From contig NZ_CP082161.1 in the NCBI RefSeq assembly GCF_023101665.1, positions 1,550,001 to 1,614,000 on the forward strand: a DNA stretch of 64,000 nt, given 5' to 3'. The notes below the pieces were generated by a model that was not told where the DNA came from, made no database searches, and was given only the letters and a program-made list of their open reading frames with translations. Of this stretch, positions 1,625 to 44,034 are shown one piece after another. This stretch comes from Bradyrhizobium sp. 195. GTDB taxonomy: Bacteria > Pseudomonadota > Alphaproteobacteria > Rhizobiales > Xanthobacteraceae. How positions within the stretch are numbered: position 1 is the stretch's first letter; each line of letters begins with the position of its first letter. The position numbers and the translations under genes are program-made.

Positions 1625-3277
1625 ATGATATCGAAGCCGGACGACCTTCCATCGGATCTTGTCAGTGCCCTGGCAGCGCTGCAGGCCGAGCGTGAGGCCC
1701 GGCTGCGAGCCGAGGCGGTGGCTGCCAGTGCGCGGGCGGAGCTGTCGGACAACGAGGCGCTGATCGCGCATCTCGAGCTGCGGATCGAGAAGCTCAAACG
1801 CGAACTGTACGGGCCGCGCTCCGAGCGCACGGCACGGCTGCTCGAGCAGCTGGAGTTGGAGCTCGAAGAACTCGTCACCACGGCGAGCGAGGATGAGCTT
1901 GCCGCGCAGGCCGCAGCGGCGAAGACGCAGAACGTCCGCCCCTTCATGCGCAAGCGGCCGGTACGCAAGCCATGGCCGGATGACATCGAACGCGAGCGCG
2001 TCGTCATTGAGGCTCCAACGAGCTGTGCCTGCTGCGGTGGATCGCGGCTGGCGAAGATCGGTGAAGATGTGACCAAGACGCTGGAGGAGATCCCGCGCCG
2101 CTTCAAGCTGATCGAGACCGTGCGCGAGAAGTTCACCTGTCGCGATTGCGAGAAGATCAGCCAGCCGCCCGCGCCGTTCCATGCCACACCGCGCGGCTTC
2201 ATCGGCCCACAATTGCTAGCGACGATCCTGTTCGACAAGTTTGGCATGCATATCCCGCTCAACCGCCAGAGTGCACGCTTCAAGGCCGAGGGGATCGACC
2301 TGCCGTTGTCGACGCTGGCCGACCAGGTCGGCCACGGGACCTTCGCTGTCATGCCGCTCTTCTACTTGATCGAACGCCATGTACTGGCTGCCGAGCGCCT
2401 GCATGGCGACGACACCACCATCCGTATCCTGGCGAAGGGCAAGTGCAAGACCGGGCGGATCTGGACATATGTGCGGGATGACCGGCCCTTCGCCGGGCGT
2501 GCGCCGCCGGCGGCGGTCTATTACGCCTCGAGCGACCGTCGAGGCGAGCACCCCCAGAAGCATCTGGCCGCCTTCGCCGGCATCCTGCAAGCCGATTGCT
2601 ACAACGGCTTCGAGCCGCTGTTCGACCCGCAAAAGAAAGCGATGCCGATCACACCGGCGTTTTGCCTGGCCCATGCGCGGCGGGGCTTCTTCGAGCTGGC
2701 TGACATCGAGAAAAATGCCCGGGAAGGTAAGAAGGGCAAACCGGTCTCTCCGATCGCGCTGGAGGCGGTCAGACGCCTCGATGCGTTGTTCGAGATCGAG
2801 CGCGCCATCAACGGCTGCGGCGCCGACGAGCGGCGCGCCATGCGCCAGGAAAAGAGCAAGCCGCTGCTCGAGGACATGCACGCCTGGTTGCTGCGTGTGC
2901 GCGAAACCCTCTCGCGCTCCTCCGAGGTCCTGAAGCCCATGAATTACATGCTCAGGCGCTGGGCCGACTTTGCCCGCTTCCTCGACGATGGCAGGATCTG
3001 CTTGACCAACAATTGTGCTGAGCGCGCATTGAGAGGCATCGCCTTGGGAAGGCGCAACTGGACCTTCGCCGGCAGCCAGCGTGGCGCCGACCGTGCCGCC
3101 ATCATGCTGACGATGATCACGACCTGTCGCCTCAACGACGTCGATCCCAAGGCCTGGCTCGCCGATATCGTCGCCCGTATCGCCGATCTTCCCGCGTCGC
3201 GTCTGCACGAACTGCTGCCCTGGAAATGGAAGCTCCCGCGCCAAGCCGACGAACCCAACGATCAGCAAGCTGCCTAA
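1625..3277 (+). CDS. tnpC: IS66 transposase TnpC
   Basis: This is a full-length 550-residue DDE transposase. Residues 1-110 form a charged coiled-coil region. Next come the zinc-binding segment (CACC, CRDC) and the catalytic domain with HGDDTT, LQADCYNGF and NNCAERALRGIALG holding the three acidic residues. It is related to, but clearly different from, the host IS66 transposase that it interrupts, so the nested elements are two different IS66 types and not a duplication. Confidence 0.92.
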   Translation: MISKPDDLPSDLVSALAALQAEREARLRAEAVAASARAELSDNEALIAHLELRIEKLKRELYGPRSERTARLLEQLELELEELVTTASEDELAAQAAAAKTQNVRPFMRKRPVRKPWPDDIERERVVIEAPTSCACCGGSRLAKIGEDVTKTLEEIPRRFKLIETVREKFTCRDCEKISQPPAPFHATPRGFIGPQLLATILFDKFGMHIPLNRQSARFKAEGIDLPLSTLADQVGHGTFAVMPLFYLIERHVLAAERLHGDDTTIRILAKGKCKTGRIWTYVRDDRPFAGRAPPAAVYYASSDRRGEHPQKHLAAFAGILQADCYNGFEPLFDPQKKAMPITPAFCLAHARRGFFELADIEKNAREGKKGKPVSPIALEAVRRLDALFEIERAINGCGADERRAMRQEKSKPLLEDMHAWLLRVRETLSRSSEVLKPMNYMLRRWADFARFLDDGRICLTNNCAERALRGIALGRRNWTFAGSQRGADRAAIMLTMITTCRLNDVDPKAWLADIVARIADLPASRLHELLPWKWKLPRQADEPNDQQAA

Positions 3278-3362
3278 CCTTCACGCAGCGCCATCATAGC
3301 CGACCCGGCCCCCGCGCGCATGTGTCAATCGGGCGGCCTTCGTCGCATGCGTACGGCGCACA

Positions 3363-3928
3363 TGCGGCGCAACTTCTATGAACTTGCCACCCCTGGCCCG
3401 GCGCCCATTGCGAGCGAGGCGCTCAAGCGCATTGCCGAGTTTTACGCCATCGAGAAGGACATCCGTGGTCGCAGCGCCGAGGAGCGGCGTCTCATCCGGC
3501 AGCAGAAAAGCCAGCCACTCGCCAACGCATTCGAGCAGTGGCTGCGCGCAAAACTCGGTCTGATCAGCCAGAAGGGCAAGCTTGCGGAGGCTATCCGCTA
3601 TGCTCTCTCGCGCTGGGAGGGACTGACGCGCTTCATCGATGATGGCCGTATCGAGCTCGACAACAATGCCTTCGAACGCTCGATCCGTCCGATCGCGCTC
3701 AATCGGAAAAATGCGCTGTTCGCGGGCTCCGACGGTGGCGCCGAGCATTGGGCCGCTATCTCGTCTCTGATCGAAACGTGCAAGCTGAACGACGTCGACC
3801 CACTCGCTTACCTCACCGACGTCCTCACCAGGATCGTCAACAGCCATCCGAACAGCGAGATCGACCAGTTGCTTCCCTGGCCTACCACCGTCAAGACTTC
3901 AAAGCCGTGGCCTGAAAACGACGCTTAC
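3363..3928 (+). pseudogene. tnpC: IS66 transposase TnpC, 3' part (interrupted)
   Basis: This is the continuation of the gene at 3-756. It opens with MRRNFYELATPG, contains DDGRIELDNNAFERSIRP with the third catalytic acid, and reaches the element end at 3928. The open frame then runs past the IS boundary into the RpiR remnant and stops at 4036, so the native C-terminus may have been altered. Confidence 0.82.
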
Positions 3929-4325
3929 GTTTGTGCGACAAAATGCAGGCCCTCAAGCTCACTCACAGGCGCAGCGAAGCTATCGGTACCCCCGATTGCG
4001 CCGCCTGCTCCGCGAGCCGATGTACCACTCGATTGAAGGACGCAAAGGTTACCGCCACAAACGCATGCCGGGCAAGAGGTCCTCCAGAACACTTTCAGGT
4101 GCTCCTCCCGGGCTATCTAACAGGATCATGTTTGGCCGCGCCTTTCGCAAGGCATATGCCAATGTATAAGCTGGAGTAAATGTAGTCCTCCTGCCACAAA
4201 CAAATACCTTTCGCGCATTTGCCAGATGACCGACTGCTTCGGTCAGCTTTTCCTCAGAGAGATGCGCACGAACTCGTCTTACAACATCGAGTTCCGCCGG
4301 AATCCGAGAAAGCTCTTCAATCCAT
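3929..4325 (-). pseudogene. RpiR-family regulator, truncated third copy
   Basis: On the minus strand this stretch matches the central and C-terminal coding part of the RpiR genes at 46379-47350 and 58278-59249 over about 390 bases, for example AAGGCGCGGCCAAAC and the SIS-domain segment around it. It carries a 16-base deletion and several substitutions. The C-terminal end is cut by the outer IS66 and the N-terminal part is absent beyond about 4325. It is older than the other two copies, which are nearly identical to each other. Confidence 0.8.
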
Positions 4326-17485: not shown

Positions 17486-19276
17486 CAAGCAATTTTTTTC
17501 ATGACCGTGATGACGATTGCAGAAATCGCGTACGTCCATTCTTTTGTTCGGCTGCGCCGCGGGCCATTCGTCCGTCCCGGCCATCGATCTCGCAGCCGCC
17601 GCGCGCAGGGGCGGTCAAGGCTGGCCGCGTTTGCGGCCACCGCAAGGCTTGGCCTTGACCGGCCCGAGCACGGCGGCATGCTGGCGTGGAACGGGACTGC
17701 ATTCCTGGCTGGCACTTGCCGTCAGGCGGGATTATCCTTGGCGGGCGCGGGCGACCTCGTGGCGAAGCGTGGCGCATGGGCTGCAAGCGCCACCAGGCTG
17801 CCCTATTTTGCCTTGCCGAGCTGAGGCGCCCGCGCGCCGGTTTTTGGCCGCCGTGGTTTCCATTGCGTCACCAAGCGCTCGTAGCTTTGCTCCGCCTGTG
17901 CAGCAATCAACATCTCGCGGTCGCGCAATGCCTTGATGTTGTAGGCATACGCTGGCCCACGCCGGCTGCCTTTCTGTTGCGGATGTCCGGCTTGAAGCTG
18001 CATCGCGCGGGTCTTGATGGCGACCAGTGCCGGGCGCGTCCACAGGTAATCCTCGCCCTTCGTCAACAAATGCCAGCAAAGCACGGTGAGCTTCCGGGCC
18101 ACGGCCACCGCGGCGATCTGATGGCCGCGCCGGGCGCGGATGCGCACGAAAAATGCATGCAGCGGACCGGGCGCCTTGGCCGCTGCCCAGGCCGCCTCGA
18201 CCAGCATGGCGCGCGCGTGACTACGGCCGATCTTGCTGATGCGGCCGTGATGGGCGGCGCCCAGTCCGGACTGCCGCACCCGCGGGTTCAGCCCAAAATA
18301 GCTCACCAGCTTCTGCGGGCTGTTGAACCGGCTGATGTCGCCGATCGCCGCCATGATGCCGGCAGCGACCGCCAAGTTGACGCCGGTGATCGTCATCAAT
18401 CTGTTGACCGCGGAATCGTCGATGGCGTCCTGCGCGATCTCGCGGTCGAGCAGGGCCAGATCTTCCGCCAGCCGGTCAAGCTCGCGGACGTGCCGATCGA
18501 TCGCCGCGCGCTCATCGTCCGGCAACGGTTGGGCCGCCAACCACGCCCGGCCGCGGCCGTTGAAAAGATCGGCATGCGGGCACTTCGGGATCAGGTGCGC
18601 GTGCAGGATCGAATGCACCTCGTTCTTGAGCCGCGTGCGATGCCGCACAACCTGGTAGCGCCGCGCCACCAGCCGACGCTTGCGTTCCGTCTCCGCGTCA
18701 GGCGTCCAGATCTGCGGCAGGTACCCAGCCGCCTGCAGACTGGCGAGCGTGCCGGCATCGATCTTGTCGGTCTTGACGTGAGCCTGGGCGATCGCCTTCA
18801 CCTGCAGCGGATTGGCGATAATCACCCGTGCCACGAACGGTGCCAGAACCCGCGATACCGCCATGCTGTTGGCGGTCGCTTCGACCACCACCTCATCACT
18901 GGCCAGCAGGGTCTTGCCAAATCCCTCCAACGCAGTCCGCGTCATATCAATGCGGCCCGCATGTCGAAGCCTGCCATCCTCCCAAACCACCACCTCCCCG
19001 AAAGTTCGGTGGACGTCCATGCCAATCACCCGTCGCATTCGCACCTCCTGCCAATCAGACCACATGACGGGAGCTGCGGGCGACACGACAACTACGGATT
19101 CGCGCTCCCAGCGCAACCGGGCGAGTCGCAGAGGCGGCCAGCTACTAACTCGAGCTCTCGGCTCATCGTATGCATCGGCCTGCCCGCACATCGTGCTCCC
19201 GGTGCCTCTGTCCCGATGTCGCACCATACGCCACGACGCAGAACACCGCAGCGGAACGTTGGCACCGAGAAATCTC
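17486..19276 (-). mobile_element. IS110-family element inserted in IS256
   Basis: Boundaries are approximate and deduced from where the IS256 reading frame stops and resumes; IS110 elements lack clear terminal inverted repeats. The element holds one transposase gene and about 300 bases of non-coding DNA downstream of it. Confidence 0.7.
17803..19038 (-). CDS. IS110-family transposase
   Basis: This is a complete 411-residue DEDD-type transposase. The N-terminal RuvC-like domain begins RRVIGMDVHRTF and includes VVVEATANS and the KTDKIDA motif; the C-terminal domain has MTITGVNLAVAAGIMAAIGDI, SYFGLNPRVRQSG and GRISKIGRSHARAMLVEAAW. The start at 19038 has a perfect AGGAGGT four bases upstream, and longer in-frame extensions are IS256 or spacer sequence. 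It appears functional. Confidence 0.92.
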   Translation of the reverse strand: MRRVIGMDVHRTFGEVVVWEDGRLRHAGRIDMTRTALEGFGKTLLASDEVVVEATANSMAVSRVLAPFVARVIIANPLQVKAIAQAHVKTDKIDAGTLASLQAAGYLPQIWTPDAETERKRRLVARRYQVVRHRTRLKNEVHSILHAHLIPKCPHADLFNGRGRAWLAAQPLPDDERAAIDRHVRELDRLAEDLALLDREIAQDAIDDSAVNRLMTITGVNLAVAAGIMAAIGDISRFNSPQKLVSYFGLNPRVRQSGLGAAHHGRISKIGRSHARAMLVEAAWAAAKAPGPLHAFFVRIRARRGHQIAAVAVARKLTVLCWHLLTKGEDYLWTRPALVAIKTRAMQLQAGHPQQKGSRRGPAYAYNIKALRDREMLIAAQAEQSYERLVTQWKPRRPKTGARAPQLGKAK

Positions 19277-19501
19277 ATACCGGTTACCAACCCGATCGAG
19301 CGCCTCAACGGCGAGATCAAGCGACGGACCGAGGTGGTCGGCATCTTCCCCAACGAAGATGCCATCGTTCGCCTCATCGGTGCGATCCTGCTCGAGCAAA
19401 ACGATGAGTGGGCCGTCCAGCGTTCCCGCTACATGACGCTGGAAACCATCGCACCCTTGAGCGATAATCCAACCGTCAGCCTTCCGGCTATTGCCAGCTG
19501 A
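19277..19501 (+). pseudogene. IS256-family transposase, right fragment
   Basis: NPIERLNGEIKRRTEVVGIFPNE to the C-terminus SLPAIAS continues the transposase from 17485. The catalytic Glu lies in the ERLNGEIKRR helix. Together the two pieces show that IS110 entered between the HST and NPIERLN codons. Confidence 0.85.
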
Positions 19502-20374: not shown

Positions 20375-20656
20375 CTATTTCTTTTTGCGATGCTGGCGCG
20401 CGGGCTTGCGACCCTTACGCAAGGTCTTTGGAGGCGTCGCACCTTTGGGTGGTTGGATGAAAAATTCAGACACATGAACGGCAAGCGTTGCAGCGATACG
20501 GTCGAGGATATCAACGGTCGGGTTTTCCGATTGCTGCTCAATACCGCCCATATAGGAACGGTCAATCCGGGCATCATACGCCAAGCGCTCTTGCGGAATA
20601 CCGCGATCTACGCGGATCCGGCGCACATTCCAGGCGACAAGCGCACGAGCTTTCAT
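20375..20656 (-). CDS. XRE-family transcriptional regulator
   Basis: The 93-residue protein has one Cro/C1 helix-turn-helix domain (residues 7-65: VRRIRVDRGIPQERLAYDARIDRSYMGGIE and NPTVDILDRIAATL) and a basic tail rich in Lys and Arg. It is a DNA-binding regulator. It lies 0.45 kb from, and divergent to, a DUF2285 gene and the FseA-like gene, an arrangement that recalls qseC-qseM of Mesorhizobium ICEs; whether it is a true QseC equivalent cannot be decided, because XRE proteins of this type are common. Confidence 0.85.
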   Translation of the reverse strand: MKARALVAWNVRRIRVDRGIPQERLAYDARIDRSYMGGIEQQSENPTVDILDRIAATLAVHVSEFFIQPPKGATPPKTLRKGRKPARQHRKKK

Positions 20657-21112: not shown

Positions 21113-21391
21113 GTGCCGTCCGATCCCAAGATCGCAGATTCCGCGCCTAACGCGCCCCAGCTCACGCCGTATGACGAGCAACATGCCGTCACCTATATGC
21201 GTCTCCTGGATGCCGAAGCCGATAATGCTGATTGGCGCGAAGTTGCGCGCATGGTGCTTGGTATTGATCCTACCCTGGATCCGGATCGCGCCCGCCGTAC
21301 TTTTGAAAGTCATCTGGCTCGCGCCAAATGGGCGGCGCGTCACGGCTTTCGGCATCTCCTGCAGCGCGGTTGGCCGAACAGCGAGGAATGA
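21113..21391 (+). CDS. DUF2285 protein, QseM-like antiactivator candidate
   Basis: The 92-residue product is a single DUF2285-type domain: YMRLLDAEADNADWREVARMVLGIDP, then DRARRTFESHLARAKWAARHGFRHLL. In Mesorhizobium loti ICEMlSym the small DUF2285 protein QseM binds and blocks the activators TraR and FseA, keeping the ICE integrated. This gene sits 170 bases before an FseA-like gene, which supports the same job here (inference). The GTG start at 21113 has AGG close by; no ATG start would retain the domain's first helix. Confidence 0.75.
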   Translation: MPSDPKIADSAPNAPQLTPYDEQHAVTYMRLLDAEADNADWREVARMVLGIDPTLDPDRARRTFESHLARAKWAARHGFRHLLQRGWPNSEE

Positions 21392-21560
21392 ATGTGTTTG
21401 ATGCGGACGTCACTTCTGTTGATGTCCGATCGCAAAATTAGATCGTCCCATCGCGTAACTGCATTTAACAGCGAATATCTGCGTTTGTGCAACCATAAAC
21501 CGTCACATTTGTCGGGCTGCAGTTGCATGTGCGTCAAAGAACATAGGGGAAAGTGGTACG

Positions 21561-22347
21561 ATGCCAGGTGCTGACTGGAAATCAGAGGAAGCCTATCCTG
21601 ACGCCAAGAAAGCAGAAGCTGCGGACATAGCCTGGGAATGGCTGCGCCGCAATTGCGAGTACCAAAGAGACTATATGGCCCTGGCGGCCAACGAACGATC
21701 CAGCGCGATGGCGGACCACTTTCGACGGCGATGGGGGCTGTCTTTTCGCAGCTGATCCGCAAAAGACGTCTGACCAACAAGCCATTTTCTGGGCGCCTGA
21801 AGTGCTGTCGACCGTGCTGTCCGTGCGCGCGGCTGTCCGCTCAGCGGCGTCCAAACGGTACAACCTGGATTTCAGCAAACTAGCGGATAGCGAGCTTCGT
21901 TGCGCGCCGGATGGATGGCATGCCATCGTGGCGCTCGGAGGCGCGAAGCATCGCCTTTGGCTAGCAGAACTGCCACCGGGAGGCTCATCGGTTGCTGTCG
22001 ACCTGCCGCTCGATCGCAATTTCGAGGTTGGTATGCGGGCAGCTCATCGATTTTGGCTGGCGCTCGAACGGCGGCCCATCGGACCATCCCCTCTGACGCT
22101 GCCGTTCTTGACGCGTCATCGGCTCATCCTCGCCTTGCGTGCAGTCGATGGATCCCTGGAAGGAAACAGCTATCGCGAAATCGCGCAAGGCCTATTCGGC
22201 AGGCATCGTATTCCCGATCGCGGCTGGAAAACAGACCATCTCCGCAGCCGGACCATTCGCCTGGTCCGGGCGGGGCTGCGTCTCATGCGAGGCGGCTATC
22301 GCGCGTTGCTCCGTCGCAACCGCAAAGACAAGGGCGAGGGGTCCTGA
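21561..22347 (+). CDS. fseA: FseA-like excision activator made by +1 ribosomal frameshift
   Basis: Two overlapping frames encode one protein. The first (21561-21755) is 64 residues with a DUF6499-type N-terminus (DWKSEEAYPDAKKA ... AWEWLRRNCEYQRDY) ending in RRWGLSF, then RS and a stop. The second is in the +1 frame from 21745, reading ADPQKTSDQQAIFWAPEVL and then a DUF2285 C-terminus (LEGNSYREIAQGLFG, IRLVRAGLRLMRGGYRALLRR). The overlap holds TCT-TTT-C at 21741-21747, where tRNA-Phe can move from UUU to UUC. In M. loti the msi172/msi171 pair is fused by exactly such a programmed +1 shift to give FseA, the activator of rdfS and ICE excision. The second frame has no good start of its own before residue 1 of the domain. 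Confidence 0.78.
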
Positions 22348-22576: not shown

Positions 22577-23485
22577 TTAGGCGGCTTCCGGAGTTGCGGC
22601 CTTTTTACAGAGCCGACCGACCCATCGGCAAAAGGCACGAGCGATCTCGGGGTTGTCACTTCGGTCCACCGCATAGGCCCGATACTGCATGCCGCTTGAA
22701 GTGCGCGATCCTGGTATCACATGGAGCGCCCCTGTCCGCATGAGATCGCTGACAATAATTTCAGGCACCACCAGCAGGCATTTTCCGGTCATCACGGCCG
22801 GCAAAGCAAGGTAATTATGATCGTATCGCGCCCCCGACTTGATGTCCTTTGCGGAAAGGTTCATGGCCCTAAGCCATGTTGGCAGTATGTCGGGCCGCGA
22901 TGTGATGTTCAGAATTGGCATCGAACGGACAGTTGAGAGCGTTTTTCCCATGACGTAATTTGGAGAACCTACGCATACGAGCGTCTCATTGTAGATCGCC
23001 CAATCGTCGGCCGGTTCAGCGATACAAAGATCGCGAGTGAGCAAGATGTCGAAATTGTCGGAAGATCTCGGCGGAGACAATGAACTGATCACGTCGACGA
23101 CTACGCCGCCCATCTCGGCAGAGAACGCCTGGAGATTCGGAATCAGAAAGGAGTACGCGAAGGTGGAAAGAGACGTGTGGACCACGATTCGATTAGCATC
23201 CGCTCGGCTCCTACGCCGCATCCTCTTCGCGGTGAAACACACTGTGTCAAGCGGTTCGGCAACGGCGTTCGCGAAGAGCCTTCCGAATTCTGTCAATTCG
23301 CTCCGTCGGCCTCGCCGTTGAACAAGATCCGTGCCAAAGTAGTCTTGTAACACAGACAAATAACGGCTGGCCGAGCTCTGTGTCATCCCCAATGTGCTCG
23401 CTGCACGCGTGACGCTACCCTCACGCGCAATGGTCACAAACACCCGGATAGCATTGAGGGGCACTTCATCGTGTTCGGCAGTCAT
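22577..23485 (-). CDS. LysR-family transcriptional regulator
   Basis: This 302-residue LysR protein is intact. The winged helix-turn-helix spans residues 9-67 (LNAIRVFVTIAREGSVTRAASTLGMTQSSASRYLSVLQ), followed by a linker helix and a type-2 periplasmic-binding effector domain (about 92-295). The start at 23485 is favoured by CCGGAG just upstream; an ATG at 23536 is in frame. It has no intact gene beside it, so its target is unknown; the divergent side is an IS remnant, which may have replaced the original target. Confidence 0.9.
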   Translation of the reverse strand: MTAEHDEVPLNAIRVFVTIAREGSVTRAASTLGMTQSSASRYLSVLQDYFGTDLVQRRGRRSELTEFGRLFANAVAEPLDTVCFTAKRMRRRSRADANRIVVHTSLSTFAYSFLIPNLQAFSAEMGGVVVDVISSLSPPRSSDNFDILLTRDLCIAEPADDWAIYNETLVCVGSPNYVMGKTLSTVRSMPILNITSRPDILPTWLRAMNLSAKDIKSGARYDHNYLALPAVMTGKCLLVVPEIIVSDLMRTGALHVIPGSRTSSGMQYRAYAVDRSDNPEIARAFCRWVGRLCKKAATPEAA

Positions 23486-23853
23486 TTTCTGCTCCGGTAG
23501 CTCCTGGAATGTCCGCTGATTGTCACGGCGGGCCATTGCCGGAATAAATGCTCCATCACATTATTCGATGTGTATATCCGGATCGCTGCTTATAAACGAT
23601 ATCTCACGCACAAAATCCGCCTTCTCGGTATGGTTCGTGCGGTCTGCCCGCAACTACGATTGCTGTCGACGGTTCTTTAAGAGGTGATCTCCAGGCGTCG
23701 GCAAGGCGGCTAACCGTTGATCCCAGTCGACATCGAGGGTCGTCTAGACGACAGGCTCGCAGTCTTAAGAGCGTTTAGAATTGCGCCCTAGAAGCCTGTC
23801 TGAGTAATCTGATTTTTCTCGACGAAGCACAAGCATCGTGATTCAAACGATGG
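23486..23853. other. Upstream region of the LysR gene
   Basis: No gene is seen. The stretch probably contains the lysR promoter and operator; nothing specific was identified. Confidence 0.4.
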
Positions 23854-24362
23854 ATGAGCAAGACATTTCGTCCGTGGGACGTTGATCAGGTTTGGCTGCC
23901 GCCGCCGTCGATCCAGGATTTTGGTGCCTTCAGGGCACGTGGCGCACTTTGTCCGTGATACGGTTCGCACCGGTTTGGACCTGTCGGCGATCATGGATGT
24001 CTACGACGAGGAGCGCGGCTTTCCGCCCTATCATCCTGGCATGATGGTGGCGCTGCTGCTTTATGCGTACAGCCAAGGGGTTTACTCGTCGCGCAAGATC
24101 GCGCGGGCTGCGAGGAGCGACTGGATTTTGCGGCGGTAACGGGGAAGCAACCTCCAGACTTCCGCACGATCAGCGAGTTCCGCAAACGCCATCTGGCAGC
24201 GTTATCGGGCCTGTTCCGGCAGGTCTTGAAGCTGTGCCGGGAGGCCGGCCTTGTGAAGCTTCGCCATGTGGCGCTCGACGGCACCAAGATCAAGGCCAAT
24301 GCCGGGATCAACAAAGCGATGAGCTATGGCCGGATGAAAGAGGCCGAGCCGAGGCTTGCGCC
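23854..24362 (+). pseudogene. IS1182-family transposase, truncated and frameshifted
   Basis: MSKTFRPWDVDQVWLPPPS starts the gene at 23854; one extra G near 23919 shifts the frame into VPSGHVAHFVRDTVRTGLDL, GFPPYHPGMMVALLLYAYSQGVYSS. A second shift near 24113 moves to ISEFRKRHLAALSGLF, VKLRHVALDGTKIKANAGINKAMSYGRM. The sequence ends abruptly at about 24362, where it abuts the PEP mutase remnant. It is not the same IS as at 16-17 kb. Confidence 0.82.
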
Positions 24363-24980
24363 GTCGGCGATGATCCGACGGAAGGTCTCCTGCATGGCGG
24401 TTGCAGCAGCACGGATGCCGTAATTGCCATAGATCATCATGCAAATATTGCCCAACGTTTTGACCCGCTTGGAGTCGAGGTCAGGGTGGGCGTTCGGCAC
24501 GATCACCAGCGGCACCGCTCCGGTCCAGGCGCGCGAAAAGCTTTCGATCTCGGAAGGATTCGCCCTCTTCGAATGGATCAGGATCATGTCCGCGCCAGCC
24601 TCCTTATAAGCGTGCGCCCGATGCAGGGCCTCCGCTTCGCCGAGGTTGGCAATCAAGGCTTCGTTGCGGGCGATGACGAGGAAATCCGGGTCCGATCTGG
24701 CCTTGATGGCGGCCTCGATCTTCCCCTCGAACTCTTCAACTCGCAATAGGTGCTGACGGCCGTCGGCAACAAGGCTCGTTACTTTTGGAAAAGTCTTGTC
24801 CTCGATCACAACGGCGCTGGCGCCGGCCCGCTCATATTCCGTGATAGCGTGAATGACGTTAATCGCATTGCCAAAGCCCGTATCAATGTCCGCGACGATC
24901 GGCAGCCTCGTGCGTCCGGCGATCGCCCGCAGCATGTCGAGATGCTGTGTCATTGAGATGAGGCTCATGTCCGGCAGCGC
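24363..24980 (-). pseudogene. PEP mutase / isocitrate lyase family, truncated at both ends
   Basis: The minus strand encodes LPDMSLISMTQHLDMLRAIA, VADIDTGFGNAINVIHAITEYERAG, VIEDKTFPK, and GADMILIHSK, the core of phosphoenolpyruvate mutase, the enzyme that forms the C-P bond of phosphonates. The N-terminal 40 or so residues are replaced by aminotransferase sequence and the C-terminus is cut by the IS1182 fragment. The region reads in one open frame with the upstream gene (24324-25667), but that results from a frameshift in the aminotransferase and is not a designed fusion. Confidence 0.8.
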
Positions 24981-26058
24981 CGGGCACGACAGCCACGGCG
25001 AAAGCGTCGAGCAAATACCGTCTGTTTCGATCAGCTTCGCGTCCGGCGTGCGCTTGCCGATAACCCCGTTGCAAGAGGGGAAAACATAAAAGGCACCGTC
25101 CGGCACACGGCAAGCAAGCCCCTTGGCCTGGTTCAGCTTGGCGACGATAAGGTCGCGGCGCTCCAAAAACGCGCGCACGAACTCTTTGATATGGTCCCGC
25201 CTCCCTGACAGCGCCTCGAGCGCGGCATGTTGAGAAATCGAGCTGGTGTGTGAAGAGGTCTGGCCCTGGATGAGGTTCATGGCCTTGATTAGCGCCAGAG
25301 GTCCGGCACCATACCCGACGCGCCAACCGGTCATCGCGTCAGCTTTGGACTCGCCGTTGACTGTTAAGGTGCGCTCAAAGAGATCCGGCGCGACTGCGGC
25401 CATTGTTGCGAAGTCGGGGTCGTAGGTGAGCTTTTCATAGATGTCGTCGGATAGCACATGCACATGGGTACGCTCGTGCAACACCGCAGCGAGCGCGAGC
25501 AAATCACCTCGGCTGTAGACTGCGCCGGTCGGATTGCACGGCGAATTCAACATCAACCATTTGGTGCGCGGCGTGATCGCCTTCTCCAGCGCCCGGGGCC
25601 GGAGCTTAAAGCCATCGAGTTCGCTGCAGGCGACGAGCACCGGCTTGCCGCCAGCCAGCGCCACCATGTCGGGATAGGAGGACCCAGCATGGCGTTGGGA
25701 TCACAACCTCGTCGCCCGGATCGAGGCTAGCGAATAGTGCGTTGAAAACGACCTGCTTGGCGCCGCAGCCCACCGTGATCTGGTCAATACCGTAATCGAG
25801 GCCATGATCGCGACGGAGGCTCTCGCCGATCGCTGCCCGCAGTGGCTTGATTCCGGCGACCGCCGTGTATCTCGTCTTCCCGTCGCGGATGGCTCGGATG
25901 CCAGCTTCACAGATAGCGGACGGCGTGTCGAAATCCGGCTCACCCTGGCTGAGCGTAATCACGTCGGCGCCCTGATCGTGCAGCTCGGCGGCGCGAGCTG
26001 TCATGACCTTGGTTTGAGAGGGACGGACGAGTTTGAGCCGTTCTGAAACGAGAGACAA
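24970..26058 (-). pseudogene. Aspartate aminotransferase-type enzyme, frameshifted and truncated
   Basis: Reading starts at 26058 (SLVSERLKLVRPSQTKVMTARAAEL, GADVITLSQGEPDFDTP, YTAVAGIKPLR). An extra C near 25685 breaks the frame after PTPCW; it resumes as YPDMVALAGG with MLNSPCNPTGAVYS, LSDDIYEKLTYD and the PLP site SKADAMTGWRVGYG. A second shift near 25015 leaves YLLDAFAVAVVPGAA in another frame, where PEP mutase sequence takes over at a GCGCTGCCGG microhomology. The family transfers amino groups between aspartate/aromatic acids and 2-oxoacids. Confidence 0.82.
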
Positions 26059-26467
26059 GACACAATATCCTTCGAGTTCGAATGAGCGGTTTCGTGGCGA
26101 TCTATCCGAACGAGAACGACCAAACTAACCGGGTGATCGCGGCATTGGATAAAATAATCGAAGATTACGATAACTGTATCGCTTCTTCGTGCGGCTCTGT
26201 TGGGCCGTTCGCAGTGCGTTGCGTCTTCGCTCTCCCTCTTCATCAGCCTGCGTTAGAAGTGCCAACTATCGCATCTTCGCAAGCTTACATCGACTTATTC
26301 GATTAGTGTCATCCTGCCGTAGCAGTTCAGGTTTTTAAGGTCGCACACAATCGCGAATATGCCTGATGACACAAGCGACCAATTTCGGTGGCCCGCCAAT
26401 GTCAGTGCCGATCTAAGAATTCGCGGGCGTGGCATTCGTATGAATGGAAGTGGAACCGGAGGCGGTG
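26059..26467. other. Spacer between divergent pseudogene units
   Basis: This 409-base stretch has no gene. It probably held the promoters of the aminotransferase (left) and the ABC transporter operon (right). Confidence 0.45.
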
Positions 26468-28048
26468 ATGACCCATATCGATCTGACGCGACGGCAAGCC
26501 ATCGCAGGCGCGGTTGCCGCAAGCGTGTTGGCCAGCACAGGCGCCGGTGCTGCGGAGGGTGAGCCTAAGACGTTGACGCGTCGCCGCCTCAAGGTCGGCA
26601 TGTCCGGATTTCCGCGATCCTTCGACCCGGTCATCGCGACCGATACTGCCATTCGCCGGATCATGCCGCAGCTTTTCGATACGCTGATCACCTTCGACCA
26701 TGCCCATGATATGCCGCTACGGCCCGGCTTAGCCGAGCGTTGGGAGCGGATCAATGCGCAGTCACTGCGGCTGTTCTTGCGCAAGGGAGTGGCTTTCCAT
26801 GACGGAACGCCTTTGACGGCCGAAGATGTCGCCTTTAGTCTTGGTCCTGACCACCTGCTGGGACCTGGACGCAGCGGAAAGTCCGAGGCGCTTCAGTTGC
26901 TTGATCGGCTCGAGAAAGTCGAAATCGTCGATCCTTACACCGTCATTGTGCATGCCAAGGGCGGCGACGCGCTCCTCGAGCAGCGCCTGGCTGCTTGGGG
27001 ATCGGAGATCGTCAGTCAGCGCGCCTTCGTGGCGGCGGGCTCGTAGGAGCGCTGGACCACAGCCCCTGTCGGAAGCGGTCCTTACAAGCTCGTCGACCAC
27101 AAGCTCGATCTTCGCGTCTCGTTGACCGCCCACGATGCCTATTGGGGCGGTCGGCCGCCGTTCGATGGCATCGACTACCGCATCATTCCCGAGCTTTCCG
27201 CCCGCGTGAACGGCCTGCTCGCCAGCGAGCTCGACATCGCCACTGACATTCCGCCGGACCAGTTCGCGACCATCCAGAAGCGTGCTGATCTCGAGATCGT
27301 GGGTGGTGCAGTGCAGAATATCCGCTCGCTCGTCTTCGATCAGACCGATGCCATCTTGAAGGATGCGGGTGTTCGCCGCGCCATGAGCCTTGCGCTCGAT
27401 CGCAAGCTGATCGTGCAGAGCTTGTGGGAAGACCGGCTCCCGATTCCGAACGGCTACCAGCTGCCGAGCTACGGCGAAGGCTACATCCACGAATTTCCCT
27501 CGCTTGCCTATGATCCCGGCAAAGCCAAGGAGCTGTTGGCCGAAGCGGGCTACAGGGGAGAGCAGATCGCCTATCGTCTGCTCAACAATTACTACCCCAA
27601 TCAGGTCTCTGGTGCGCAGATTATGATCGAGATGTGGCGTGCGGTTGGCCTGAACGTCAAGATCCAGATGATGGAAAACTTCGCGCAAATTCAACGCCAG
27701 CCGGTGCGTGCCATCTTTGATACGTCGAATACGGCGCTCTTTTTGGATCATCTCGGCCATCCCTGGCGTGAATTCGGTCCGAGCGGCACCCTGCCAAAGT
27801 CGATCGGAGTCTGGAGGAACGAGGAATACTTCGCGCTCGGCGCCAAGCTCCAGGACATCGTCCAGGCCGAACAGCGCCGGCCGATCATCCGTCGTATGCT
27901 CGAGATCATCAACTAGATCGATCCGCCTTGCGTGATTCTGCACGTCTCGGGCCAGTTCTATGGCAAGCGCCGCGATGTGCCATGGCTGCCGGGACTGACG
28001 CTCGACCTCAATTTCGGCCCCTTCAACAGAGCTCTGATCCGGACCTGA
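26468..28048 (+). pseudogene. Oligopeptide-type ABC transporter substrate-binding protein with two in-frame TAG stops
   Basis: The start at 26468 follows GGAGGCGGTG and encodes a signal peptide with a twin-arginine-like TRRQAIAGAVAASVLAS. The SBP_bac_5 fold is readable throughout in a single frame (LKVGMSGFPRSFDPVIATD, GVAFHDGTPLTAEDVAFSL, GSGPYKLVDHK, VRRAMSLALDRK) but is stopped by TAG at 27044-27046 and TAG at 27914-27916; the true end is a TGA at 28046. A protein of about 526 residues would bind peptides or similar ligands in the periplasm. It heads a five-gene dpp/opp-like operon, most of which is also mutated. Confidence 0.85.
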
Positions 28049-28640
28049 TCGCGATGATGCACACCTTGAATCGACCATTGTCCGACAGCAATCCGCCCTT
28101 GGAGCTAGCCCTCGGGCAGAGTGTCTTGGCGATGACCTGGTTTGACGACATTCTTGCCGCTGGAGATCTTGCGATCCTGTTCAAGGTCTCGCAGCCGATT
28201 CGAGGGGACGGCCGCGTTGCCTGGGAGGCGCGGACGCTGCGCCGAATTCATCAAAGCGTGGCTCAGAACCGCGCCGACGATCTGATAGCGCGCCGGCAAG
28301 TAGCGGAGCGCCTTGAGATCGGATGCGAGCTCAAGGCTGCTGCAAGTGTCCAGCCCATGTTCGAAAGCTGCGCGAACATCGGCCATTCCGAGGCGCATGG
28401 TACGATCTCCTTTGGGGAGCATTCGTGCTCTTTTGCCGGCCTTGTCGATACCAGCAATTCCAGGCGCGCCCGCACACCTGTCGCACAATTGCGCTGGCTA
28501 AGCACGCTTGCCGCCGATCGCCGAAGGTCGGCGGAGTTGCCATTCGAGGATGCCGCATCGTTGCTCTCTTGCCGTGGCAAGGGCTTCGTTCAAATCGAGC
28601 TGATGCGGCCCCTATGATGCGGGAAGGGCAGGGATCTCGC
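28049..28640. other. Unassigned 0.6 kb inside the ABC operon
   Basis: Open frames exist on both strands but none shows a known family. In related operons the ATPase follows the binding protein directly or after a small enzyme gene, so this may be the wreck of such a gene. Confidence 0.35.
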
Positions 28641-29628
28641 ATGGAGGCGCTTCTTCAGATCGCAGGTTTGGGTGTCGCGTTCGACGGTGTGCCGACGCTG
28701 CGCGGGTTCGATCTCACTCTCAGGCGTGGCGAATCGCTGGGCATGGTCGGCGAAAGCGGTTGCGGCAAATCCGTGACATGGCTTGCAGCGCTCGGTCTGT
28801 TGACACGGCGTGCTAACATAACGGGCAGCGTACGCCTGGCCGGAGAGGAGCTGCTCCATGCGCCAGCCTCTCGCCTCGACAACGTGCGCGGCGGGCAGAT
28901 CGCCATCATCTTCCAGGGCCCGGCGAGTGCGCTTAATCCTGTGCACACGGTGGGCAATCAGATCATCGAGGCCTTGCGGCTTCATCGCGGCATGGACCGC
29001 CGCACGGCGCTTGCCGAGGCGCGACGTCTGCTCGATCAGGTCGGTATACCCGATGCCGCGCGCCGGCTTGGCGCCTATCCGCACCAATTATCCGGTGGGC
29101 AGAACCAGCGCGTTATGATCGCACATGGCCCTTGCGGGGCAACCCGACATCTTGATCGCTGATGAACCTACCACCGCCTTGGATGTCACTATTCAAGCGC
29201 AGATCCTTGAGCTTCTGCGGCAGATCCAACGCGAGACAGGTATGGCGTTGGTCCTGATCTCGCATGATCTCGGCATCGTCAGTGAGATCTGTGAACGCGT
29301 ACTAGTCCTTTACGGGGGGCACATCGTCGAAGAATTGCCCACCGACCGTCTCTTCGACCAACCTGATCATCCATATACGAGAGGTCTTCTTGCCGCTCTT
29401 CCAAGTCTGGATGCGCCGCGGCAACGCCTCTTCCCCATTCCGGGGGTCGTGCCAAACGCAGCCGAGTTTCCGCCAGGCTGTCCTTTCGCTCCTCGTTGCG
29501 ATCGGCGGATCGGACGCTGCAGTGAATGGGCGATTGAGCTCGCCTCGCTGGATGGCGACATCAGACACAGGGCTGCCTGCTTGCATGTCACGAGCGAGGT
29601 GCCCACGGGCGAGGTCGTGGCTGCATGA
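28641..29628 (+). pseudogene. ABC transporter ATPase (DppD/OppD type), frameshifted
   Basis: Walker A is GESGCGKS, the Q-loop lies in IIFQGPASALNP, and the signature is LSGGQNQRVMIA. One extra C at about 29123 breaks the frame; it resumes as MALAGQPDILIADEPTTALDVT with Walker B and the H-loop ISHDLG, followed by the oligo_HPY tail (CPFAPRCDRRIGRC). The downstream ATPase starts inside its stop codon (ATGA at 29625). Without the repair of one base the protein lacks Walker B. Confidence 0.85.
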
Positions 29629-30622
29629 CAACGACTGCTCCGCCGATCCTCCAAGCCGATGGGCTTGTCCGTCGATATCGCTTGCCAAAGGGCCCTTTCC
29701 AGCGTCCAGCGATGGTCCACGCGGTGAATGGGCTCTCGCTGCAGCTGGCTCAGGGCGAAACGCTCGGACTGGTTGGCGAATCCGGCTGTGGTAAGTCCAC
29801 GACGGGCCGGCTCCTGATCGGCCTGGACCGACCAGATGCCGGCTCTGTGACTTTCGGCGGAGAAGCTTTGCCTGCTATCGGCGATATTCGATGGCGCCGG
29901 CTCAGGATGCGAATCTAAATGGTATTTCAGGATCCGCTAGCTGCGCTCGATCCCCGCCTGACGATCGGCGCGCAGATAGCCGAGCCGCTCGAAATTCATC
30001 GGCTTGGCAGCAAGTCGGAACGAAAGGGGCGGGTCAATGCGCTTCTCGCGGATGTGGGGCTTAGGGCCGATCACCTCAGGCGCTTTCCGCACGAGCTTTC
30101 AGGCGGTCAGCGCCAGCGTGCTGTCCTGGCCCGAGCGCTTGCGACCGATCCAGATCTCATTGTCTGCGACGAGCCAGTATCGGCGCTCGACGTCTCGATC
30201 CAGGCGCAAGTGATCAATCTTCTGCAGGATCTGCAGGCGCGGTGGCGCATGGCGATGATCTTCATCAGCCATGATTTGCGAGTAGTCCGGCTGATCAGCG
30301 ATCGGATTGCTGTGATGTATCTCGGCGCCATCGTCGAGGAAGGCGCCTTTGAGGCGGTTCTTCTGGATCCTTTGCATCCCTATTCGCGGGCGCTCGTTTC
30401 CGCGGTGACAGGCCGGGGAGACATCGGTCTCGCACGATCCTGCAAGGAGATCCGCCCGATCCGGCTGCGCGACCGGGCGGCTGCGCATTCCATCCTCGCT
30501 GTCCGGTAGCGCCTCCCCTTTGCGCGCGGTTCGCCCCAGAGCTCACATCCGCTCCCGACGGGCGCCGCGTCGCCTGCCATCTGATCGGCGACCATGGTGC
30601 CGTATTCGAGAAGGAGGCATGA
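29625..30622 (+). pseudogene. ABC transporter ATPase (DppF/OppF type), nonsense and frameshift
   Basis: Walker A GESGCGKST is followed by RRLRMRI and a TAA at 29916-29918, where relatives have Gln (RIQMVFQDP), so CAA to TAA is likely. Reading goes on with [41 protein letters not shown] and ISHDLRVV. Near 30430 a frameshift moves the C-terminal [10 protein letters not shown] and RRVACHLIGDHG to another frame that ends at the TGA at 30620-30622, overlapping the permease start. Confidence 0.85.
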
Positions 30623-31551
30623 TGGCTCGCTTGATCGTGGTTCGCTCGGCGCGCGCGTTGCTGACCATCGGAATTGTGGTCACATTCGCATTCGCGGTGC
30701 TGCGCGCCGCTGGCGATCCCGCCCGTGCGTTACTTTCGCCGGAAACCCCGGCGGAAGCGGTCGAGGCCTTCCGAAAGGCCTGGGGGCTCGATGGGCCGCT
30801 CTGGGTGCAATACCTCAGATACCTCTTTGCGGTCGGTCATGGTGATCTCGGCCAATCGATGCGTGACGGGCGTTCCGCGATCACCGTCGTGGCCGAGCGC
30901 CCCGTCACGCTGATGCTGACTGCGCCGGCACTGACCCTCAATCTGTTGGTCGGCATTCCGGCTGGCATCTACGCGGCTCTCAAACGAGATAGCATCGCGG
31001 ATCGATTGGTGATGATGGTAGCGGTCGTGGGCTTCACCGTGCCATCTTTCGTGCTCGGCCTCGTGTTCGTATTGGCTTTCGCAGTCGAGCTCTCTTGGTT
31101 CCCCTCGGGCGGTGCAGGCACTTGGCAGCATTTGATGCTGCCCGTCATCACGCTCGGTCTGGGTGGTGCGGCCGTTTTGGCCCGCTTCAGCCGCAGCGCT
31201 ATGCTCGAGGTACTTGGGCAGCCCTATATCCGTGCCGCCAGCGCCAAGGGTGTGCCTTGGGCGAGAGTCGTCACCGGCCACGCTCTGCCCAACGGCGCGA
31301 TAACGGTGCTGACCATCGTCGGCTTCATGGTTGGCAATCTCATCGCGGGAACGGTGCTCGTCGAAAGCGTTTTTTCATGGCCAGGCATTGGCAGTCTGCT
31401 GGTCGTCTCGGTTGCGAGCCGTGATTTGGCTGTCGTCCAGTGCATCCTGCTCATTGTGGCCGCCGCCATGATTACCACCAATGTCACCATCGATCTGCTC
31501 TATGGCGTGCTCGATCCACGTATGCGCGAGTTGCGCTCTGGGAGGCAATAA
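30622..31551 (+). CDS. ABC transporter permease (DppB/OppB type)
   Basis: This 309-residue inner-membrane permease is intact, with about six hydrophobic segments, the family feature DLGQSMRDGRSA after the first loop, and the EAA region (AASAKGVPWARVVTGHALPNG). The ATG at 30622 is used because AAGGAGG lies four bases upstream and the preceding ATPase ends on it. It is the only undamaged member of its five-gene operon, so it cannot form a working transporter with its neighbours as they stand. Confidence 0.88.
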   Translation: MARLIVVRSARALLTIGIVVTFAFAVLRAAGDPARALLSPETPAEAVEAFRKAWGLDGPLWVQYLRYLFAVGHGDLGQSMRDGRSAITVVAERPVTLMLTAPALTLNLLVGIPAGIYAALKRDSIADRLVMMVAVVGFTVPSFVLGLVFVLAFAVELSWFPSGGAGTWQHLMLPVITLGLGGAAVLARFSRSAMLEVLGQPYIRAASAKGVPWARVVTGHALPNGAITVLTIVGFMVGNLIAGTVLVESVFSWPGIGSLLVVSVASRDLAVVQCILLIVAAAMITTNVTIDLLYGVLDPRMRELRSGRQ

Positions 31552-32428
31552 TTGTCGAGCATTTCCGCAGACCGAATTCTGCCGACTTCGAGGATGCGCA
31601 GTCTGGGGTGGTGGCGTGACCGCGGGGTCGCAATTGCGGTTGCCTGGCTCGCCCTCATGCTTCTTGTCGCAATCTTCGCTGATCGCCTCGCCTCTTATGA
31701 CTATGCAGCCCTCGACCTTCATCATCGCCTCGCTGCACCTCTTGGTCTCGGCGGAACCATCGCGAATCCCTTCGGTTCGGACGAACTCGGCCGGGACGTG
31801 CTGGCGCGCCTGATTATATCCATCCGCATCAGCTTACTTATTGCTTTCGGAGCGACGTTGATCGGCGTCGTCCTTGGCACTACGCTTGGAGTTTTGGCCG
31901 CTCACTTCCGAGGCTGGGTAGAGCAGGTCATCCTCGGTTGTGTTGATTTCCAGGCGAGCATGCCGATTCTCGTTTTGGCACTCGCGGTGCTTGCTTTCTT
32001 CGGCAACTCTCTGCTCCTCTTCGTGGGGCTCATTGGTCTGCACGGATGGGAACGCTACGCGCGTGTCACCCGTGCGCTTGCTATGAGTTCCAACGAGCAA
32101 GCCTATGTGATCGCCGTACGCCAGCTTGGCGCAAGGCCATCGCGCGTCTACCTGCGCCACGTCATGCCGAACATCGCCTCCACCGTGATCGTCACCATGA
32201 CGCTCGCGTTTCCGGACGTCATTTTGCTCGAGAGCGGCCTTAGCTTTCTTGGACTTGGAGTGCAGCCGCCGCTGACCTCGCTTGGCAATATGGTCGGTTA
32301 CGGCCGTGACTATCTGACCCGTGCTCCCTGGATCCTTGCTCCCTTCGCTGGTCATCTCACTCACCACTTTGTCGATTTCGCTCGTCGGCGATTGGCTGCG
32401 CGATCGGATCGACAAGACATTATCATGA
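31552..32428 (+). pseudogene. ABC transporter permease (DppC/OppC type), late frameshift
   Basis: The TTG start directly follows the dppB-type stop and has GGGAGG six bases upstream. DELGRDVLARLI, the hydrophobic segments and the EAA loop (AVRQLGARPSRVYLRHVMPNIA) are normal. Near 32353 the frame is lost after LAPFAG; the expected last helix and tail, VISLTTLSISLVGDWLRDRIDKTLS, lie in another frame ending at 32428. In the unshifted frame the protein runs on to 32520 with unrelated residues. Loss of only the last helix could leave partial function. Confidence 0.8.
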
Positions 32429-32529
32429 GCCTTCCAGAACCCTGCTTTCGATCCCTCTGCCCCGCAACATCCTGCCTTTCGACCGGCTGCAGCGATCTCG
32501 CGGCGGCCGCGTTCGAATAGCGCCATCCA

Positions 32530-42300: not shown

Positions 42301-44031
42301 TCAAAACGCAGTCGGTCGACCATCGCTGATTTGCGGCGTTTTCGTCCACAGCATGCCGTCGCACCATATATGTTCAATGCGCCCCCACTGACAGGCGCTA
42401 GCGGCGTCCGGGAAAAACCCACGTCCATGGAGGTTGGCGCTCGTATTGCAGAGCAGGGGAACGCCCGTGAGCTTTTCATATTCGACGAGAAGCTCGGCGA
42501 CTTTGTGCTGCGAGGTTCTGGGAACGGTCTGTAATCGTGCAGATCCATCGAGATGCACAACGGCCGGGATTTTCTCTTGCCATCCCAGTCGTGTCTGGTG
42601 ATCGAATAGCATGTAAGGATCCGGTGTTCCAGGGTTAAAAATATGTGGCGCTCGGTCCTCTAGACATATCGGTGCCACTGGTCGAAAGGGTTCGCGAAGT
42701 TTGATCTCATTGAGATGATCCTTCATTCTCGACGAAGTCGCGGCTGCAAGAATGCTTCTGCTACCCAATGCCCGTGGTCCCAGTTCGGCGCGGCCGGCAA
42801 GGAAGACCACGGGTTTGTTGCTGGCGAGAATGGCCGCAAGTTCGCGCATGCTGCACGACGCGGCCTGCCAACCGGGTGGCACGTCGCTAGGTTGCACGGC
42901 TGGACCGCCGTAGACCGACCATTCCAGCGGCACGAAGCCGCTGTTGGCCGCCAGTGCGGAGCAAGCGGCACCGATTGCGGAGCCACTGTCATTCGGGAAG
43001 GGTGGCACCCAGACAGCATCGAACAGACCTGTGGCACGCAGAGCACTGTTCCATTTGATGTTCAGACCGCAGCCGCCAGCTACGCACAGATTGCGCGCTT
43101 CCGAAAGATGCGAATGCCGCTGCAAGGCAATCGCCGTTTGCCTGACAAGCAGACGTTCGAGGAAACAATGAAACGATGCAAGCACATCCTCGGGTGCTTT
43201 GGCCTTCAGGCGGAGCGCGCTTGCATCGAAGAAGTCATGCAAAGTCCCAAGGGAGGACTGGGCCCTGTACCGACTGGCAAGCTCTGTGCCAGCCGCAAGG
43301 TGCTTTTTGTAGAGTTCTTGAAAAACCGTGACAATGTTTTCATCAACATAGCCAAGCGCGATGTAGGCCATCAATTTCCCTGCCACACCTAAATCCAGCG
43401 TGGTGCCACCACCCGGGTCGCGCTTGACGGCACGATCCACATCCGAGTTGGTGCAGCTCGCCTGCTTATACGGTCCGAAGTGATGACCCGCGACGGCATA
43501 AGCATGACCATTGATCGGAAACAGGCATTCGAGGAATTGGGCTTTACGGCGTTCTACGTAGTAGAAACGTGGGAAGGTACCGCCGTCCCACACCAGGCAG
43601 AACGCGGGCTGTCCGGCCTTGGCAAAGGGACTCGTGCAGTATGCAGAGGCGACATGACCCGTGATGTGTGAATAGCTTCGATACGGGAAGCACCTGCCAT
43701 CGAGTAGCAACCCAGAGCCGTCGCGCGAAGTGAGGAGGCCTCGATCAGGTTCAATGTATGGCGCCCCCTTGAGAGTGATGGGCGCCACACCACTGAGGAT
43801 CTGGAACTGGGACTCTACTTCGCCCCGCCAGCCATCGATGACGAACTGATCAATATCCTGCGGATCCCGACCGTGCCTCTCTAAGGCGACAACAACACTA
43901 TCGAGATTGTTGATGGTCTGATACCGCGGATTGTTATCCCGCTTCTCCTGCTCGAAACAGAAGACGAGCCGGCGATCCTCGACAAGAGCGATTGCTCCGT
44001 CATGCGTCAGTTTCATGCCGCAGATCCGCAT
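42301..44031 (-). CDS. nodU: Nodulation protein NodU, carbamoyltransferase
   Basis: This 576-residue protein of the NodU/CmcH (TobZ-like) family transfers a carbamoyl group to the non-reducing end of lipochitooligosaccharide Nod factors. It begins MRICGMKLTHDGAIALVEDRR and contains HITGHVASAYCTSPF, VAGHHFGPYKQ, CVAGGCGLNIKWNS, PPFPNDSGSAIGAAC, RAELGPRALGSRSI and PLLCNTSANLHGRGFF, all expected. The start at 44031 has GGAGG four bases upstream; the frame continues upstream into a nodS remnant. About 13 extra residues (near VDRAVKRDPGGGTTL) precede DLGVAGKLMAY compared with the NodU I remember. The gene looks intact though its operon is gone. Confidence 0.92.
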   Translation of the reverse strand: MRICGMKLTHDGAIALVEDRRLVFCFEQEKRDNNPRYQTINNLDSVVVALERHGRDPQDIDQFVIDGWRGEVESQFQILSGVAPITLKGAPYIEPDRGLLTSRDGSGLLLDGRCFPYRSYSHITGHVASAYCTSPFAKAGQPAFCLVWDGGTFPRFYYVERRKAQFLECLFPINGHAYAVAGHHFGPYKQASCTNSDVDRAVKRDPGGGTTLDLGVAGKLMAYIALGYVDENIVTVFQELYKKHLAAGTELASRYRAQSSLGTLHDFFDASALRLKAKAPEDVLASFHCFLERLLVRQTAIALQRHSHLSEARNLCVAGGCGLNIKWNSALRATGLFDAVWVPPFPNDSGSAIGAACSALAANSGFVPLEWSVYGGPAVQPSDVPPGWQAASCSMRELAAILASNKPVVFLAGRAELGPRALGSRSILAAATSSRMKDHLNEIKLREPFRPVAPICLEDRAPHIFNPGTPDPYMLFDHQTRLGWQEKIPAVVHLDGSARLQTVPRTSQHKVAELLVEYEKLTGVPLLCNTSANLHGRGFFPDAASACQWGRIEHIWCDGMLWTKTPQISDGRPTAF

Positions 44032-44034
44032 ACT

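Follow-up and report, generated by a model that had tools for sequence, protein, structure and literature searches.

The window analysed here is a stretch of 64,000 nucleotides (G000:C1:1550001-1614000) of the 9.14-Mb genome of Bradyrhizobium sp. 195. It contains a group of regulatory genes. An XRE-type helix-turn-helix gene (20375..20656, minus strand; PF01381, E = 1.6e-5), in a QseC-like position, is divergent from a gene with a GTG start coding for a QseM-like lone DUF2285 protein of 92 aa (21113..21391, plus strand; PF10074, E = 1e-7). Next comes an fseA gene in two parts. The first (21561..21755, plus strand) encodes a DUF6499 domain (PF20109, E = 3.5e-19) in the zero frame and stops at a TGA at 21753-21755. 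The second (21748..22347, plus strand) carries, in the +1 frame, the middle and DUF2285 (RovC_DNA-bd) domains (PF10074, E = 5.6e-31). An intact gene for a LysR-type regulator of 319 aa is convergent with fseA (22577..23536, minus strand; PF00126, E = 1.1e-18) and aligns to a relative in one uninterrupted piece of 301 residues. Beyond it lie broken aminotransferase and phosphonopyruvate-hydrolase-like genes (24360..26058, minus strand), the usual neighbours of this LysR gene, which are matched in more than one frame and lack their ends. ABC transporter genes of the oligopeptide type (26444-32520, plus strand), which are broken at least in part, are divergent from the broken aminotransferase gene. 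Transposase genes of the IS110 type (17803-19377, minus strand) and of the IS66 type (1625-4036, plus strand) are located on one side of the group. Finally, a carbamoyltransferase gene is found at 42301-44172 (minus strand; PF02543 and PF16861); we take its product to be NodU-like, which suggests that the window belongs to a symbiosis region.

If TCT-T at 21741-21744 is taken as one step, the two fseA frames give a single fused protein of 261 residues. Thirteen two-domain homologues predicted as uninterrupted, found among the 120 listed out of 846 related proteins, align to it with the junction free of gaps (47-55% identity, 96-97% query coverage), and all 13 have the motif W-G-x-x-F-x-A-D-P there. 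Together with the PF20109 and PF10074 matches, the gap-free fusion bears out the proposal of the first-pass annotation that the two frames are two halves of one FseA-type activator. Indeed, the gene has the hallmarks of this type, with DUF6499 joined to DUF2285 (matches above cut-off) and a +1 site at the WGL-x-F junction. The frameshift region reads TGG-GGG-CTG-TCT-TTT-C (21732..21747, plus strand), with the slippery TTT at 21744-21746 and the skipped base at 21747. The same annotation had placed the join at TCT-TTT-C (21741-21747), which holds, and had called it the sole open path between the frames, which does not: the +1 frame is open from 21631 up to the zero-frame stop at 21753-21755, with two in-frame TTT-C, at 21720 and 21744. 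Because of this long open frame, it is the comparison with homologues that fixes the shift point, and not the stops alone. An AlphaFold2 model of the fused protein had a pLDDT of 51, too poor for structural comparison.

The arrangement recurs in the genus. A DUF2285 match with E <= 1e-10 was present in 158 of 242 Bradyrhizobium genomes, among the matches listed. From these, 80 stretches were fetched, 50 around matches with at least 65% identity and 30 around matches with at most 61%, a selection in which partial copies may be missed; loci of the window's own genome and two named loci were added. As stretches were picked by identity band from the matches listed, the proportions of the classes given below are those of the sample and not frequencies in the genus. 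There were 91 DUF6499 matches including that of the window, and all except one (L014, set aside) had a DUF2285 partner nearby. Among the resulting 90 pairs, 87, the window included, have TGG-GGN-NNN-NNN-TTT-Y, with the second domain continuing one base further. The three others, left out before site counts, are L131 and L031, which are the same broken gene, and L015, where TGT replaces TTT. L030, which duplicates L122, and the truncated L063_3310 (231 aa) were further left out before the tree, the codon counts and the counts over 37 loci. Two of the exceptional copies belong to the same genome as the window and are distant FseA-like genes: L015 (G000:C1:7713243-7714008), with TGT in place of the slip codon, and L014 (G000:C1:7680873-7685366), whose halves are about 4 kb apart with transposase-like frames, judged by eye, between them.

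Since uninterrupted fseA homologues exist, one might think of an ordinary fseA gene split by a sequencing or assembly error. However, the same +1 layout recurs in 87 of 90 pairs across many assemblies and the slip codon is invariant, and we rejected this explanation, whose probability is close to nil. Uninterrupted homologues without a shared slippery site, the pattern that the first-pass annotation had set against its own proposal, are not what the Bradyrhizobium loci read here offer; uninterrupted ones exist elsewhere, in line with published data. The conserved sequence is nevertheless not the one that had been put forward for an alignment. Neither TCT nor TTTTC is kept across the sampled loci, and both were discarded as conserved core in favour of the wider pattern. 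The codon preceding TTT varies (TCG 31, TCT 22, ACG 13, TGC 13, others 7; n = 86). TTT is followed by C in 58 of 86 distinct sequences and by T in 28, never by A or G. That the skipped base is always C or T, though it is non-coding in FseA, fits a re-pairing of tRNA-Phe from UUU to UUY. Hence, the re-pairing suggested earlier agrees with the data, while UUC as its general target does not, the next base being T in 28 of 86.

Codon usage singles out the same site. Its Phe codon is TTT in 85 of 85 sequences (rows lacking the site having been left out), as compared with 198 of 639 for the other Phe codons of the same genes, and the upstream Phe codon, at 21720 in the window, is TTT in just 7 of the 78 sequences that have Phe there. 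The Gly codon of the site is GGG in 57 of 85 cases vs. 208 of 1434 elsewhere in the same genes, a bias matching the UGGGGG stretch noted for FseA genes (PMC10359603). The zero frame ends three codons past the site in 77 of 86 sequences. This near stop is lost in nine (L062, L063, L066, L067, L107, L132, L135, L137, and L138), and in eight of these the zero frame continues for more than 100 nt, so that a longer unshifted product is expected. The site was also found in five LysR-class loci read later (L172-L175 and L182), and TGGGGN-N6-TTT-C occurs in four of five plasmid records (M. ciceri, M. japonicum, P. versutus, and B. guangxiense; it is absent from p172). The programmed +1 shift that had been invoked for the Mesorhizobium gene (msi172/msi171) is confirmed by the publication, where about 61% of 4709 FseA homologues are stated to require a +1 shift (PMC10359603). 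Thus, a frameshifted FseA is in itself ordinary for its family and an already published trait.

The genetic setting of the gene is of two main kinds. A locus was counted as belonging to an integrative and conjugative element (ICE) if it held at least 3 of 7 tested ICE genes, and a LysR gene as present if it scored more than 100 bits within 6 kb. According to these thresholds, 39 of 87 loci have the convergent LysR gene, 28 have ICE genes, none has both and 20 have neither; several of the last hold a weaker or more distant LysR match. An rdfS-type match is present in 28/28 ICE loci. The sequence upstream of rdfS contains the inverted repeat GGGGTRYCGAAAA-N11/12-TCTTCGGCATCCC. In 27 of 28 ICE loci, its right arm is positioned 86-88 nt ahead of the start codon (23 boxes found by pattern and 4 by a matrix built from those; L094 has no identifiable start). 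The inner hexamers of the repeat are 15-16 bp apart, as in the published FseA box (PMC10359603). No such box was found in the fetched stretches of the 59 non-ICE rows (54 stretches) or in the 64-kb window, and a local FseA box was therefore rejected. A search up to 6 kb from the window fseA also gave no rdfS match, so that the ICE excision module, rdfS with its adjoining box, is lacking at this place.

A QseM-like match occurs in 37/37 LysR-class loci and an XRE match upstream in 30/37. The QseM-like protein of the window is a lone DUF2285 protein devoid of DUF6499 and is acidic, with a pI of 5.8 vs. 11.9 for the last 91 residues of FseA; the XRE-type gene adjoins its gene in divergent orientation, as expected for qseC. 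These observations support the earlier view of the FseA-type, QseM-like and XRE genes as one cassette without adjacent transfer genes. A location outside an ICE is not new in itself, since PMC9601964 remarks it for a related module in the USDA110 symbiosis island.

In a midpoint-rooted tree of 85 FseA proteins, 53 non-ICE sequences, the window included, form a clade (support 100/99) with long branches that is placed among ICE rows and consists of 37 LysR-class and 16 "neither" rows. Four further non-ICE rows make up a separate clade (support 100/100). With two such clades, FseA seems to have parted from the transfer genes on two or more occasions. The +1 site is present in each of the 57 non-ICE rows of the tree, rows without it having been left out beforehand. 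The order xre-qseM-fseA-rdfS-repA is also found on plasmids of M. ciceri and B. guangxiense, and this gene order shared with plasmids of other rhizobia supports the ICE setting as the older one. Given the midpoint rooting and the plasmid gene order, the clade of the window is most simply derived from ICE fseA genes, as judged from sequence comparison. The four rows of the separate lineage (L102, L105, L107, and L109) keep the frameshift site and have no qseM match nearby; in L107, L109, and L102, genes resembling those of oligopeptide transporters and phosphodiesterases, judged by appearance, are close by. Another kind of location was seen for second fseA copies without a qseM match. At L134:7397-8089 (minus strand), one follows a TssA-like gene (ImpA_N, E = 3.2e-23), and in L139, L065, L068, and L140 a second, LysR-free fseA follows a gene of the same cluster. 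The TssA-like gene appears, by eye, to stand alone in one 47-kb stretch.

Does the cassette of the window still serve a purpose? It might be a drifting ICE remnant without present function, an idea suggested by the transposase genes and broken genes of the neighbourhood, by the absence of rdfS and of an FseA box nearby, and by the fact that two LysR-adjacent copies in other genomes are broken (L131/L031, without the site, and L171, where it is present). However, both fseA halves, qseM, xre and the LysR gene are all intact in the window, the slip codon is invariant among the copies that carry the site, and the 53 sequences form one long-branched clade. Moreover, the median dN/dS in this main non-ICE clade is 0.27 for the first half of fseA and 0.27 for the second, the corresponding medians for ICE rows being 0.27 and 0.22, and both halves look to be under purifying selection. 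We therefore consider a functionless remnant quite improbable. The first-pass annotation had suggested that the module possibly survived the loss of the transfer genes. The loss itself fits the tree; a decaying relic is at odds with the supported non-ICE clade, with the dN/dS of 0.27 and with the conservation of the LysR gene and of an upstream element.

This LysR gene is associated with the cassette well beyond the window. A match was found in 65/242 genomes, and it is present in 46 of 47 genomes with a non-ICE fseA vs. 19 of 195 others, as raw counts that ignore kinship. Five of the 47 genomes (G111, G018, G059, G213, and G161) were first classed by identity and then read, and in each of them the site is present and a LysR gene lies next to fseA. 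One genome (G010) has an fseA copy bearing the upstream element and no LysR match. Another (G076), in which no LysR gene and nothing more than a DUF2285 fragment was seen, was left out; including it gives 46/48. In L171 (G034:C69), a window-like cassette lies beside a 90% identical LysR gene; its fseA contains in-frame stops, and the upstream element and the slip site are present.

The upstream element, E1 (21429..21453, plus strand), is made of ATC-N9-GAT followed by CCATCG, and it is a candidate LysR-type operator of fseA. It is the sole match of its pattern in the window at up to 3 mismatches, and none was expected in 100 shuffles, the pattern being drawn from the same element. In LysR-class loci, an element resembling ATCGCAAAAnnnGATcgTTcCATCG lies 127-136 nt before the fseA start. 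At this fixed place, ATC-N9-GAT is found in 35/37 LysR-class, 12/20 "neither" and 0/28 ICE loci; when the whole 180-nt upstream stretch is considered, the counts are 37/37, 13/20 and 2/28, respectively, as compared with 825 of 7400 for stretches of 180 nt drawn at random from these loci. A second ATC-N9-GAT, E2 (23555..23569), directly upstream of the LysR gene, is a candidate autoregulatory site and occurs in 36/37 LysR-class loci. Among 15 LysR loci lacking fseA, E2 is present in 8 and not found by pattern in 7, and E1 is present in none. Our inference is that the LysR protein binds E1.

An alternative is that LysR and fseA are mere neighbours, the LysR protein serving the phosphonate genes only and E1 belonging to another regulator, such as a NodD-like LysR, the XRE protein or FseA. 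Indeed, the LysR gene adjoins a phosphonopyruvate-hydrolase-like gene in 13 of the 15 fseA-free loci, and in 11 of these 13 also an aminotransferase gene. The hydrolase-like protein of an intact relative has TIGR02321 as its best NCBIfam model, with a score of 351.5 that is below the cut-off of 374.4. In a comparable cluster, palR-palA-palB of Variovorax sp. Pal2, genes for a phosphonopyruvate hydrolase, an aminotransferase and a transporter accompany a LysR gene, and PalR is the LysR regulator controlling the phosphonoalanine genes there; the available part of the article describes no FseA cassette with it (PMC10574752). In the window, both the hydrolase gene and the aminotransferase gene are broken. 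E1 and E2 also share little outside ATC-N9-GAT, which is moreover the palindrome of the nod box, bound by NodD, itself of the LysR type (PMC5596368). A full nod box, searched for by its core, had 0 matches in the window at up to 3 mismatches and was rejected. Against mere proximity, 14 of 37 LysR-class loci keep the LysR gene and show, within 6 kb, neither a hydrolase nor an aminotransferase match (one of them, L069, ends at a contig edge), and E1 is absent from the 15 fseA-free LysR loci and from the fixed place in the 28 ICE loci. Since LysR stays without the phosphonate genes in those 14 loci, and is intact in the window where these genes are broken, it seems now to serve fseA. A regulator of phosphonate genes that merely happens to lie beside the cassette is thus a rather unlikely account, if one to be taken seriously.

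The target of FseA may be distant. A second fseA with an rdfS-type gene is found at 1.24 Mb of the same genome, and the only exact match of the FseA box pattern in this genome (C1:1240005) is at this rdfS, 332 kb from the cassette. The search for rdfS, traR and traI elsewhere in the genome, recommended by the first-pass annotation, was hence productive: besides the rdfS-type gene, the 1.26-1.27 Mb region has a weak TrbE-type match (1264960, E = 2.5e-4), an AHL synthase gene (1273412), and a LuxR-type gene (1274304), and contigs C2 and C3 carry further such genes. The putative DNA-binding helix is alike in ICE and non-ICE FseA, and at the 90% level no fixed difference distinguishes the two classes. 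When half-boxes were searched for in the same genome, 20 matches were obtained vs. 5 for the reversed control. An exact box is present in 35 of 47 genomes with the cassette and in 74 of 195 without it, and the 12 cassette genomes without one argue against rdfS as the general target. Our provisional choice of target for the window's cassette is the box at the 1.24-Mb rdfS; the cassette would then be a second input to excision. Symbiosis ICEs of Bradyrhizobium can be very large and split (PMC9239051), so that a single element may comprise both the window and the transfer region.

Comparison with known systems shows what is shared and what is particular. FseA of ICEMlSymR7A in Mesorhizobium (msi172-msi171) likewise joins DUF6499 to DUF2285 through a +1 frameshift, with WGL coded by UGGGGG ahead of the site (PMC10359603). 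The same element has QseM, a lone DUF2285 protein with negative surface charge, and QseC, the XRE-type regulator of qseM; there, fseA lies with traI2, is driven by TraR and acts on rdfS via the FseA box (PMC10359603, PMC5882170, PMC8627217). The window fseA differs in that rdfS and the box are locally absent and in that a LysR gene adjoins. In ICEAc of Azorhizobium caulinodans, rihF1-rihR form a similar FseA/QseM/XRE-type module that affects transfer, and a LysR protein of the same ICE, AhaR, senses a host flavonoid and acts on the integrase gene intC. Unlike in the window, a frameshift is absent from ICEAc according to the authors, and for the fseA-like gene neither a neighbouring LysR gene nor a LysR operator is described in the available part of their article (PMC9601964). 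A more distant member of the domain family is RovC of Yersinia (PDB 6xz5), a weak match to the fused FseA (E = 3.3e-4); in contrast to the split gene of the window, it is one uninterrupted protein, which activates a type VI secretion system (PMC10359603).

Taken together, the data lead us to favour, with a probability of roughly 0.6, an ICE-derived, frameshift-gated activator in which a LysR protein, originating from a phosphonate gene cluster, has taken the place of the quorum-sensing input. In the corresponding model, built on sequence, the xre-qseM-fseA cassette would have become separated from the conjugation genes and associated with a LysR-type regulator. With a co-inducer, possibly a phosphonate in view of its usual neighbours, the LysR protein would bind E1 and switch on fseA, thereby standing in for TraR and the acyl-homoserine lactone. 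The ribosome would pause at UGGGGN and tRNA-Phe would slip from UUU to UUY, so that only a fraction of translation would yield full FseA. QseM would bind the DUF6499 half and block FseA, and the XRE protein would control qseM.

What stands out is a lineage outside the ICE that is linked to LysR and has kept the frameshift. Its setting is new; we found no published account of the LysR-fseA pairing, of the E1 element or of the clade in the open-access literature. A wider interpretation, which we offer as tentative, is that a frameshift-gated conjugation activator was freed from its transfer genes, re-plugged into a metabolite-sensing LysR of the symbiosis region and kept in many members of the genus, where it may act as a nutrient- or host-linked second trigger for island mobilisation, or else control a new regulon under translational gating. 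Intact copies in both non-ICE lineages (53 and 4 tree rows, rows without the site having been left out) carry the frameshift, and its value may thus exceed ICE excision. If LysR drives fseA, the purpose of the +1 frameshift becomes testable. Excision or expression would then track a metabolite or plant-linked signal rather than cell density, with translational gating and antiactivation still kept, and symbiosis-island transfer in Bradyrhizobium would have, in the cassette, a candidate for a second trigger.
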